This document shows, one piece after another, positions 29,866 to 32,267 of a stretch of DNA of 64,000 bases; the first letter of the stretch is position 1, and the number at the start of each line of letters is the position of its first letter. Location: positions 62,001 through 126,000 of the forward strand of contig UCAG01000010.1 in the NCBI GenBank assembly GCA_900470285.1, in the 5' to 3' direction. A program made the translations under genes and the position numbers. A model generated the notes under the pieces. That model worked only from the letters and a program-made list of their open reading frames with translations. It ran no database searches and was not told where the DNA came from. This DNA is from Hyphomicrobiales bacterium. Its GTDB lineage: Bacteria > Pseudomonadota > Alphaproteobacteria > Rhizobiales > Rhizobiaceae.

Positions 29866-31269
29866 TTACTGCTGTTCTTGCAACCAGACTTTGAAGTCAT
29901 TGAGAGCCCGTGCGCTGAGAGCACGTTTTTTGGCCTGTGTCTTTTCTTTGCCGCGCAGGCGTACGCCTTCCTGTTTCGGAACTGTAACTTCAGGAAACAG
30001 TCCGAAATTCACATTCATTGGCTGGAAAGAACGTTTGCCCGGTTCATCATCACTGACCAGGTGACCGCCGGTAATGTGATTGAGCAAAGCGCCAAAAGCT
30101 GTTGTGACGGGCGGTGGCGGCAAAGTCTCACCGCGCTGCTGTGCAGCTGCAAAACGACCGGCGAGCAAACCCATTGCTGAAGATTCCACATAGCCTTCAC
30201 AACCGGTAATCTGGCCTGCAAAACGGATCTGCGGGCGGGATTTTAGGCGCAGACTGGTATCAAGCAGGATCGGCGAATTGAGATAGGTATTGCGGTGTAA
30301 ACCGCCGAGACGGGCAAATTCCGCATTCTCCAGACCTGGAATCATGCGCAAAATCCGGGTCTGTTCGCCATATTTCAGTTTGGTCTGGAAACCGACCATA
30401 TTATAGAGCGTGCCGAGTGCATTATCCTGACGAAGCTGCACAACTGCATAGGGCTTCACATCGCGATTATGGGCATTAGTCAGTCCCATCGGTTTCATCG
30501 GGCCGTGACGCAATGTTTCAGGGCCGCGCTCTGCCATCACTTCAATCGGCAGACAGCCGTCGAAATAAGGTGTGCCTTCCCATTCTTTGAACTCGGTCTT
30601 TTCACCATCAATCAAAGCCTGAATGAAAGCCTGATATTGCTCTTTATCCATCGGGCAGTTGATATAGTCTTTGCCTGTGCCGCCCGGACCAACTTTGTCA
30701 TAGCGCGACTGGAACCAGCAGACATCCATATTGATGCTGTCAAAATGGATGATCGGCGCAATCGCATCAAAGAAGGCGAGGGAATCGGCTTCGGTTTCCT
30801 GTGCGATTGCCTCCGCCAGTTCTGCGGCGGTCAGCGGACCGGTGGCGATGATGGTATTGCCCCAGTCTTCCGGTGGCAGGCCTTCAACCACTTCACGCTG
30901 AATAGTGATGAGCGGATGCGCTTCAAGCTTTGCAGTGACTGCATCAGAGAAGCCGTCACGGTCAACCGCCAGCGCACCACCGGCCGGAACCTGATTGGCA
31001 TCGGCGCAGGCCATAATCAGCGAATTGGCCAGACGCATTTCAGCATGTAGCACGCCGACGGCATTGGTTTCAGCATCATCCGAGCGGAAGGAATTGGAGC
31101 AGACAAGCTCCGCCAATCCGTGGGTCTTATGCGCATCTGTACCGCGCACGGGACGCATTTCATGAATGATGACGGGAATGCCTGCTTCAGCAATCTGCCA
31201 TGCCGCTTCGCTGCCTGCGAGGCCGCCGCCGATAATGTGAACAGGTGAATAGGATGATAAATTGGACAT
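29866..31269 (-). CDS. trmFO: Methylenetetrahydrofolate--tRNA (uracil-5-)-methyltransferase TrmFO
   Basis: This FAD/folate-dependent enzyme makes ribothymidine at position 54 of tRNAs. The 467-residue product opens with a dinucleotide-binding loop ([16 protein letters not shown]), then [25 protein letters not shown], a central ATGPLT motif and a C-terminal [19 protein letters not shown]. All are characteristic of the TrmFO (GidA-small) family. ATG 31269 begins the conserved part; the frame extends 12 codons upstream into a non-conserved stretch. It lies just downstream of the terminator of the DUF1127/CCUCC-RNA locus on the same strand. Confidence 0.96.
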
Positions 31270-31350
31270 GCTTTGTCCAATACCGCTTTTACAACGCAGC
31301 ATCAATCACCTCTGTGCCAGATCACAAGCTTTTGCGGATAGGAATAATGG

Positions 31351-31394
31351 ATAAAAAAATAGCCCTGTCGCAGGAGGGAGGGCGACAGGGCTAT
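31351..31394 (-). terminator. Intrinsic terminator ending the DUF1127/CCUCC transcript
   Basis: Stem 31382-31394 with 31359-31371 (atagccctgtcgc and its complement, 13 bp), loop of CCTCCCTCCT on the minus strand, then a run of seven T seen as the A-tract at 31353-31359. Confidence 0.88.
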
Positions 31395-31592
31395 CTTAAG
31401 GAGGACTGATATGGGGGGGATATCAGTCAGCGCAGAATGGAGGACATAGTCCTGACAGCGCTATGCCTGCTGAAAAACGGGAGGGACAACAGCAGGCAAT
31501 AAAACATGACCGGTACGGGAGGAGGAATACCGGTCATGTAAGGGGAGGATGTTTATCCGTCTGTGCCGGTGGTTAAAAAACTCCGGCACAGA
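31351..31592 (-). ncRNA. Array of CCUCC-loop hairpins downstream of DUF1127 gene (CcsR/cuckoo-like RNAs)
   Basis: Read on the minus strand, hairpins follow the DUF1127 stop with stems at 31592-31560, 31539-31504, 31498-31464, 31456-31426, 31428-31404 and 31394-31359. Six CCTCC clusters occur (plus-strand GGAGG at 31373, 31400, 31439, 31480, 31518 and 31544), spaced 26-41 bases apart and mostly in loops. One is the exact CCTCCTCCC (31517-31525). The last hairpin has a 13-bp stem and a T-run and is an intrinsic terminator. In Rhodobacter, CcsR RNAs with CCUCCUCCC loops are cotranscribed with a DUF1127 gene; 'cuckoo' RNAs are described in Rhizobiales. Membership here is inferred from motif and context; the number of mature RNAs is unknown. 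Confidence 0.78.
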
Positions 31593-31665
31593 TATTTCGT
31601 GGCATACATACTATCAGTTCAGGCGAATTCCCGATCCTGACAGTTTTAGCAATGACTTGCTTAAA

Positions 31666-31818
31666 TTACATACCGGCAGTGTTGGACTTGCGGGCGATGT
31701 AAGGAATGTCGGAGCGGGAGATACCGAGATCACCGAGTTCACGATTGGACAAACGGTTCAGTTCGGAAACTGTGTCACGGTAACGGCGCCAGTTGTTGAA
31801 AGAGCGAATGATGTTCAT
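31666..31818 (-). CDS. DUF1127 small basic protein (CcaF1/YjiS-like)
   Basis: A 50-codon gene starting at ATG 31818, with GAGGG eight bases upstream. The product reads MNIIRSFNNWRRYRDTV, then ELNRLSNRELGDLGISRSDI and ends RKSNTAGM. The LNRLSxRELxDLGISRxDI block is the DUF1127 signature. Members are short, Arg-rich and often stress-induced; Rhodobacter CcaF1 binds RNA and influences processing of the CcsR RNAs encoded with it. The same arrangement occurs here, with CCUCC hairpins immediately downstream. A TATATA (31869-31874) might be part of its promoter, but I find no convincing -35. Confidence 0.92.
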   Translation of the reverse strand: MNIIRSFNNWRRYRDTVSELNRLSNRELGDLGISRSDIPYIARKSNTAGM

Positions 31819-32267
31819 TTTTAAAACCCTCGATTGTGTTCAGTTGTGTTGTGTAATCTGTTGTCCTGTATATAGCCCGGGTGATCAGAAATGAGGAGAG
31901 ACAAGATTGCATAGCTCCTCTGCGAGCCTTGCAGACCTCATTTAAACGATTTAAATCGCTATTTAGTCGCTATTTGGACAAAATTGGTGCCGGTCGCAAT
32001 TTTCGTTCGTTAAACTGTGATTGCGGGCAATTTAAATGCGGTATGACGCATTAAGCCTCACAAAAATATCGCCTGTGGGTTGTGTAGGAATTGTGACATT
32101 TCAAGAGCTATGCAAGGCGACACGGCATTAAGGTTAGTGACTGGTAAAATTGCGGGCTGGTTGTTGAGTGGCTGTGCGATTTTTGGATACTTGAATGCGG
32201 GGAATTTTCGTGGGAACCTTGCTTTCATGAAGGGGAACGGCTTGTTTACAGGGGGAGATCAGGTCGC
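31819..32267. other. Spacer: leader of DUF1127 locus and a 12-bp palindrome
   Basis: Divergent spacer of 449 bases. It holds the leader of the DUF1127 transcript, a perfect palindrome cgatttaaatcg at 31947-31958 amid AT-rich repeats (tttaaacg, atttagtcgct), and the leader of the gene at 32268. An open stretch at 32080-32274 has no family resemblance or ribosome site and is not called. Confidence 0.5.

Follow-up and report, generated by a model that had tools for sequence, protein, structure and literature searches.

A diverged DUF1127 locus of the CIN1 type with a candidate VtlR/LsrB box in Pseudochrobactrum

The window analysed here, i.e., the whole stretch of 64,000 nucleotides, carries on its minus strand a short DUF1127 gene and, 3' of it, predicted hairpins in a row. 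With a probability of about 0.7, this is a diverged locus of the CIN1 type, whose transcript, driven by VtlR or LsrB, would be processed into anti-Shine-Dalgarno (aSD) RNAs silencing mRNAs that have strong ribosome sites. The case is built on the sequence, its predicted structure, its conservation with some covariation and the enrichment of a regulatory box upstream of such genes. The type of locus is known, since CIN1, a short DUF1127 gene with CcsR-like RNAs, is already in print (PMC10253847, in the excerpts available), and the VtlR/LsrB box at CIN1 loci is the part most worth testing.

The hairpin row and its conservation

The 50-codon minus-strand DUF1127 gene reported by the first-pass annotation is confirmed by Pfam (Table 1). 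The window comes from the genus Pseudochrobactrum: named loci that encode a 100% identical DUF1127 protein include those of P. kiredjianiae, P. saccharolyticum and P. asaccharolyticum. The protein is invariant across the seven Pseudochrobactrum genomes of the comparison set (n = 7, one just 61% complete), the other six carrying one to eight silent nucleotide differences from the window. Each of the seven genomes has two DUF1127 genes. What defines CIN1, a short DUF1127 gene on the same strand as CcsR-like RNAs and directly 5' of them, is found here. Downstream, trmFO, which matches that of P. saccharolyticum at 99.2%, begins past the H6 terminator.

Table 1. Features of the locus, with positions in the window
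Feature	Position	Strand	Remarks
Candidate VtlR/LsrB box CAGAGGAGCTATGCA	31908..31922	minus	-104 from the start codon; 11/15 letters of the VtlR motif
Candidate -10, CTATAT	31870..31875	minus	37 bases past the start of the ATGCA of the box
DUF1127 gene, 50 codons	31666..31818	minus	Pfam PF06568, E 1.2e-16
H0, hairpin of 8 bp past the stop codon, without CCTCC	31610..31644	minus	all pairs kept in 6/7 genomes
H1, 9-bp hairpin, motif absent in the window	31561..31591	minus	CCTCC in 4/7 genomes of the genus
H2, 12-bp hairpin, loop TTCCTCCTCCCG	31504..31539	minus	exact motif in 7/7 genomes
H3, 9-bp hairpin, CCTCCC in the loop	31464..31498	minus	loop kept in 7/7 genomes
H4, outer 5-bp stem and small inner stem	31429..31462	minus	CCTCC overlaps the inner stem, unconserved
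H5, 9-bp hairpin, C7 loop	31404..31428	minus	CCTCC in 3/7 genomes, 5-7 consecutive C in the other 4
H6, intrinsic terminator ending in seven T, loop CCTCCCTCC	31352..31397 (hairpin 31397-31356)	minus	loop in 6/7 genomes
Second, weaker ar14-like unit, H2-H3	31458..31560	minus	genome search 30.8 bits, E 9.9e-4
ar14-like unit, H4-H6	31356..31460	minus	Rfam RF02344, 40.1 bits, E 7.9e-6; gathering score 58.8
trmFO, downstream neighbour, outside the RNA unit	29866..31305	minus	NCBIfam NF003739

CcsR RNAs carry CCUCC loops, and seven predicted minus-strand hairpins (H0 to H6), closed by the terminator at 31356, stand 3' of the DUF1127 gene. The earlier count of six hairpins with CCTCC was partly right: the row of strong hairpins stands, and the motif lies clearly in a terminal loop in H2, H3 and H6 only, i.e., in three cases instead of six, the exact CCUCCUCCC being limited to H2. 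The single exact CCTCCTCCC loop that had been noticed is that of H2, and the terminator hairpin with CCTCC in its loop was also correctly seen. Eight CCTCC start in the region (31548, 31525, 31522, 31484, 31443, 31404, 31381 and 31377). That at 31548 belongs to the linker before H2, and that at 31404 begins with the last base of H5 and extends into the next linker. In the predicted fold, the CCTCC of H4 overlaps the 3' arm of the inner stem and would be in a loop only if this stem opens, a state to which the hairpin finder gives a score of 14.

The 321-nt region has a predicted folding energy of -131.4 kcal/mol (z = -12.4), a value equalled by none of 100 shuffles. It holds three CCTCC-loop hairpins scoring at least 16, while in 500 dinucleotide shuffles their mean number is 0.054 and no shuffle has more than 1. 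At the same threshold, nine CCTCC-loop hairpins (two plus, seven minus) are found in the whole window, three of them at the locus; at a score of at least 24, those three are the sole ones on both strands. A simple terminator scan, whose loop limit of 8 would miss H2, returned one terminator, corresponding only to the inner part of H6, at a rate not above that of shuffles (1 vs a mean of 0.8).

The locus is kept in all seven Pseudochrobactrum genomes, with some compensatory changes in the stems. A standard pair is present in 97.0% of the 471 cells of the seven-locus alignment, as against 25–47% in slid versions. Both-sided changes affect 6 of 68 pairs (mean of the shuffles 3.0, with 9 of 500 reaching this number), four in H6, one in H1 and one in H3, where G-C became A-U in one genome; counted by cell, they number 9 for a shuffled mean of 3.5, and none of 500 shuffles is as high. 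Further pair types show no excess (17 vs 17.5 in shuffles, 407 of 500 as high). This covariation is modest, 46 of the 68 pairs being invariant, which counts against the main reading, and kinship among sequences can beat such shuffles without any structure. The first-pass annotation had named unconserved stems in related genomes as grounds for giving up its reading; examined in the seven genomes of the genus, the stems are conserved and the reading is not refuted.

The C7 loop of H5 had been put forward as a possible novelty. This idea is weakened, and the loop looks more like a decayed motif than a new one, because CCTCC stands at the same place in three of the seven genomes. Since the motif prevails in the family, it was probably lost rather than gained at H1 and H5, whose stems persist in the window with loops devoid of the CCTCC found there in sister genomes. 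These apparently decayed loops are what is unusual in the window copy and set it apart from its relatives; the row and its length do not.

The region upstream of the DUF1127 gene

The upstream region appears to point to VtlR/LsrB rather than to an RpoHI/RpoHII promoter, and the locus is probably switched on by this known LysR-type regulator. A role in heat or oxidative stress, in the sense of CcsR, is no more than possible. A conserved block that ends in CTATATACA lies upstream of each of the two DUF1127 loci of the genus, and the block of the named loci reads roughly GCAaaGCAGCTATGCAaacTTG...[CT]TATAT. The upstream block of DUF1127 loci resembles the VtlR motif, published as CAATGCAGCCATGCA (PMC12595884, in the part available); the box of the window is off this motif at 4 of 15 positions, which counts against the main reading. 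CTATAT is identical in the seven loci of the genus and in three aligned rows of the second locus. ATGCA occurs in the 200 bases upstream of 72 of the 80 named loci and is followed by [CT]TATAT at exactly +37 in 43 of these 72, each other offset from 20 to 59 being represented by at most one named locus. The conserved block fits a LysR box with CTATAT, RpoH sites having been judged by eye. No minus-strand promoter came out of a generic sigma-70 scan, and no CTTGAC-type -35 was seen by eye at 17 bases from CTATAT.

Among the matches listed, the VtlR motif with at most three mismatches lies 30–200 bases upstream of 63 of 93 hairpin-bearing family loci, as against 1 of 93 in a distant control window (530–700 bases upstream). 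These 93 loci result from a gap rule of 330 bases, which admits an intervening second DUF1127 gene. With a rule of 200 bases, which leaves 84 loci among the matches listed, the real motif is found at 57 loci, and 40 permuted motifs average 0.2 loci, with 2 at most. The named loci are within three mismatches of the motif in 45 cases out of 80 and within four in 70. However, the box is also found upstream of 9 of the 30 family loci without hairpins (among the matches listed) and may therefore belong to the protein gene rather than to the RNA part.

A weight matrix was derived from 39 distinct boxes, none from the same genus and all with at most three mismatches to the published motif. As these boxes were picked by likeness, its consensus repeats the VtlR motif by construction and it is independent only on the window, where CAGAGGAGCTATGCA comes top of about 128,000 positions with 15.68 bits. 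The runner-up reaches 14.94, and given this narrow lead, the position of the box upstream of the right gene carries much weight. Elsewhere in the genome, the matrix gives 22.7 at one AbcR, 20.6 at the second DUF1127 locus and a weak 12.2 at an orphan ar14 RNA; the same scan found no high-scoring box near the second AbcR. The weak box of the orphan and the lack of one at the second AbcR argue against a strict regulon of three classes.

One AbcR (ar15) RNA (L145:3427-3538, contig C14) adjoins lysR and trxB and has a strong VtlR-type box; the other (L146:2717-2819, contig C6) lies upstream of a solute-binding protein gene. The order trxB - lysR - AbcR matches the vtlR neighbourhood described for Agrobacterium (PMC7486931, in the excerpts available).

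Rfam placement and relatives

The CcsR/cuckoo-like family to which the locus had been assigned by motif and context holds: a DUF1127 gene with CcsR-like RNAs is the CIN1 already described, and the nearest Rfam family is ar14, which counts for the main reading. The better of the two units scores below the gathering cut-off of this family (40.1 vs 58.8 bits). Both units of the window fall short of the latter, which counts against the main reading, and a regional Rfam search places the weaker one at 31501-31582 with 25.3 bits. The ar14/NfeR1 layout of three hairpins each with CCUCCUCCC is not found, the window having one exact loop among seven hairpins. Another trait of ar14, read from the Rfam consensus, is a terminal hairpin acting as a terminator with a CCUCC loop, and H6 has it. 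Of 14 control genomes, 3 likewise show sub-threshold ar14 matches (E up to 1), which is a further point against the main reading. At gathering thresholds, Rfam finds only a tRNA in the whole window; weak sub-threshold matches to sX13, Pseudomon-1 and miRNA were rejected as chance. A plasmid collection gave no match.

By these scores, the window holds the most divergent of the three ar14-like loci of its genome, its units reaching 40.1 and 30.8 bits and the two others 75.8 and 76.9. The 75.8-bit match is the second DUF1127 locus (contig C3), an ar14 unit of three hairpins that passes the cut-off. The fifth ar14 match of the genome (24.5 bits) is an AbcR RNA. The orphan ar14/NfeR1-like RNA (L144:3100-3215, contig C17, 76.9 bits) has no DUF1127 gene and carries TGCATGACTGTTATGCAT upstream.

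At least one CCTCC-loop hairpin is found 3' of DUF1127 in 77 of the 80 named loci (L115, L116 and L119 being the exceptions). As controls, the opposite strand gives a hit with the same finder in 8 of the 80 loci, and a stretch of at most 900 bases upstream does so in 9. In Brucella/Ochrobactrum, Mesorhizobium, Aureimonas, Jiella and others, the DUF1127 gene and its hairpins are again followed by trmFO, if not in every member of these genera. A wider family set was composed of 28 loci (own genus excluded) and 100 more drawn among the matches listed; it omits the second genes of tandem pairs, some places close to contig ends and the last part of the list, and therefore leans to close relatives. 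Among the matches listed, 93 of these 128 loci have at least two hairpins, 5 have one and 30 have none. The 93 carry 383 hairpins, 304 of them with the exact CCTCCTCCC, at 2–11 per locus, so that both the row and its length are familiar, and the proposal that the number of hairpins represents a new arrangement is rejected. Classes based on ORF length were uninformative, all 128 loci among the matches listed falling into one.

The family set also suggests two subclasses of DUF1127 proteins, because hairpin rates differ between them: among the matches listed, at least two hairpins accompany 68 of 73 WRR[YWF] proteins and 12 of 35 WRK[YF] proteins, 20 of the latter 35 having none. Tandem DUF1127 genes about 200 bases apart, then six or nine CCTCC-loop hairpins, are seen in L007, L009, L016 and L018, and the hairpins form repeated triplets in L007, L009 and L016. 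The DUF1127-hairpin-trmFO arrangement also occurs in a record titled Bacillus subtilis strain SK6B4 (L047), where it is of the Pseudochrobactrum type, and in a MAG titled Xylophilus sp. (L080), where it resembles Brucella/Ochrobactrum loci. With such foreign locus types, both records look mislabelled or contaminated.

Proposed function and known systems

From these data we infer the transcription, processing, binding and targets of the locus as follows. A LysR-type regulator of the VtlR/LsrB kind would bind 31922-31908, and transcription would begin near 31865. The single transcript would encode the DUF1127 protein, then two ar14/cuckoo-like RNA units, and would end at H6, before trmFO. Its 3' part would be cut from the mRNA into stable RNAs, by RNase E if the Rhodobacter model applies; CcaF1 and RNase E both participate in CcsR maturation (PMC10253847, in the excerpts available). 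In the same way, the DUF1127 protein of the window may bind the RNAs and aid their maturation. Other DUF1127 proteins act via protein contacts, for example with PhoR (PMC12501420, in the part available), which counts against the main reading. The exposed CCUCC loops of H2, H3 and H6 would act like the anti-Shine-Dalgarno end of 16S rRNA and, by pairing with GGAGG ribosome sites, block translation of mRNAs, probably mainly of those that encode the periplasmic binding proteins of transporters. No exposed CCUCC loop is present in H1, H4 and H5, which would be spacers or protein contacts. Predicted pairing with GGGAGGA amounts to -12.3 to -14.0 kcal/mol for the CCUCC loops, -7.6 for the C7 loop and -2.6 for the loop of H1; the poor pairing of the last two counts against the main reading.

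GGGAGGA followed by ATG at 3–10 bases occurs at 47 sites of the genome, as against 2 for the reversed pattern. These sites define 30 loci and 23 frames of at least 60 codons, 20 of which were scanned, three open-ended ones being excluded. The control set started from 40 AAAGGAT sites and led to 30 loci and 20 frames of at least 60 codons, all scanned. Periplasmic or solute-binding proteins are encoded by 5 of the 20 GGGAGGA-led genes and none of the 20 controls, 2 of which encode transporter ATPases. The difference is slight (one-sided Fisher about 0.02, by hand calculation) and weak, since at 1e-8 Pfam recognises nothing in 8 of 20 control frames vs 2 of 20 test frames, and genuine genes may therefore be scarcer among the controls. 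Genome-wide, CCTCCTCCC itself shows no enrichment (12 sites vs 9 reversed), which counts against the main reading; at three of the 12, the opposite strand reads a perfect GGGAGGAGG before ATG, in one case ahead of an MmgE/PrpD gene.

The loops could instead hold a partner. As a sponge or decoy, the clustered C-rich loops would retain a protein (DUF1127 or another RNA-binding one) or a purine-rich partner RNA and would not pair with mRNAs. The many alike loops in a row and the persistence of the H1 and H5 stems after loss of the motif are in favour of this idea, as is the finding that CcaF1 of R. sphaeroides binds RNA and takes part in CcsR maturation, according to the excerpts available. We nevertheless consider it unlikely, since CCUCCUCCC itself is kept in 304 of 383 family loops (among the matches listed) and NfeR1, the founder of ar14, silences mRNAs through pairing of its aSD loops with start regions, as tested with reporters, and is described as Hfq-independent (PMC10746234, in the part available). 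A Caulobacter sponge paper was discarded as a parallel, as the part of it available concerns ar8 RNAs. The kept stems of H1 and H5, together with the one strong terminator, would also suit hairpins that only form the 3' end of the DUF1127 mRNA and stabilise or terminate it, their CCUCC loops being relics. The invariance of CCTCCTCCC in H2 and of CCTCCC in H3 (7/7 genomes each) and the presence in the same genome of an ar14 locus without a DUF1127 gene make such a role still less probable than that of a sponge. Finally, CCTCC is common, with 37 sites on both strands of the window, which is what chance C-rich hairpins or a repeat element would call on, but the shuffles, the conservation across genera and the synteny leave hardly any room for this explanation. 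Processing into silencing aSD RNAs is the reading that we retain.

It ties a known type of locus to a named regulon. If VtlR/LsrB drives DUF1127-aSD transcripts, the phenotypes of regulator and DUF1127 mutants may partly stem from the 3'-end RNAs. The seven genomes also form a natural series of loop decay for asking how many aSD loops such an RNA needs. More speculatively, and at less than even odds, VtlR/LsrB-controlled DUF1127 genes of Rhizobiales, so far investigated mostly for their small proteins, would be dual RNA-protein genes that release 3' aSD RNAs, with one redox LysR regulator driving the AbcR, NfeR1 and CIN1 RNAs; the trmFO copy of Pseudochrobactrum would be changing its job, its stems being kept, its aSD loops partly lost and its RNA becoming partly structural (protein binding or sponge).

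A cited Agrobacterium study of LysR-controlled small RNAs may already link VtlR/LsrB to CIN1. Among the papers listed on these RNAs and proteins, none joins VtlR or LsrB with CcsR, and PMC10746234 and PMC7143759 join LsrB, NfeR1 and cuckoo. Among those listed for small RNAs of Pseudochrobactrum, none deals with the window locus, judged by titles and the starts of abstracts.

Several known systems resemble the locus. The genes atu1667, BAB1_0914, BAB2_0512 and BAB2_0574 are small genes of the same type with a VtlR motif upstream, and the available parts of the sources treat them as small-protein genes without describing an RNA part. VtlR directly activates atu1667, an orthologue of VtlR-activated small-protein genes of Brucella, and the authors left the possibility of an action as RNA open (PMC7486931, in the excerpts available). 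The AbcR RNAs (ar15, RF02345) share with the window RNA the aSD motifs and, according to the source parts available, VtlR/LsrB control, but form an Rfam family separate from the ar14-like RNA and are found elsewhere in the genome. The resemblance to ar14/NfeR1/cuckoo (RF02344) lies in CCUCC loops on variable stems, a final hairpin that is the terminator and an LsrB-type box upstream. LsrB activates NfeR1, which uses redundant aSD loops to silence mRNAs (PMC10746234, in the part available). Whereas ar14, as described in the material available, has three hairpins each with CCUCCUCCC, the window has two diverged units under the Rfam cut-off with one exact loop. A counterpart in layout is CcaF1-CcsR1-4 of R. 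sphaeroides, which likewise consists of a short DUF1127 gene, a row of homologous RNAs and a terminator. In the excerpts available, CcaF1 has 71 amino acids as against 50 for the DUF1127 protein of the window, and the CcsR locus is under an RpoHI/RpoHII promoter (PMC10253847). Unlike this CIN1, the window locus carries a VtlR/LsrB-type box and part of its loops are without the motif.
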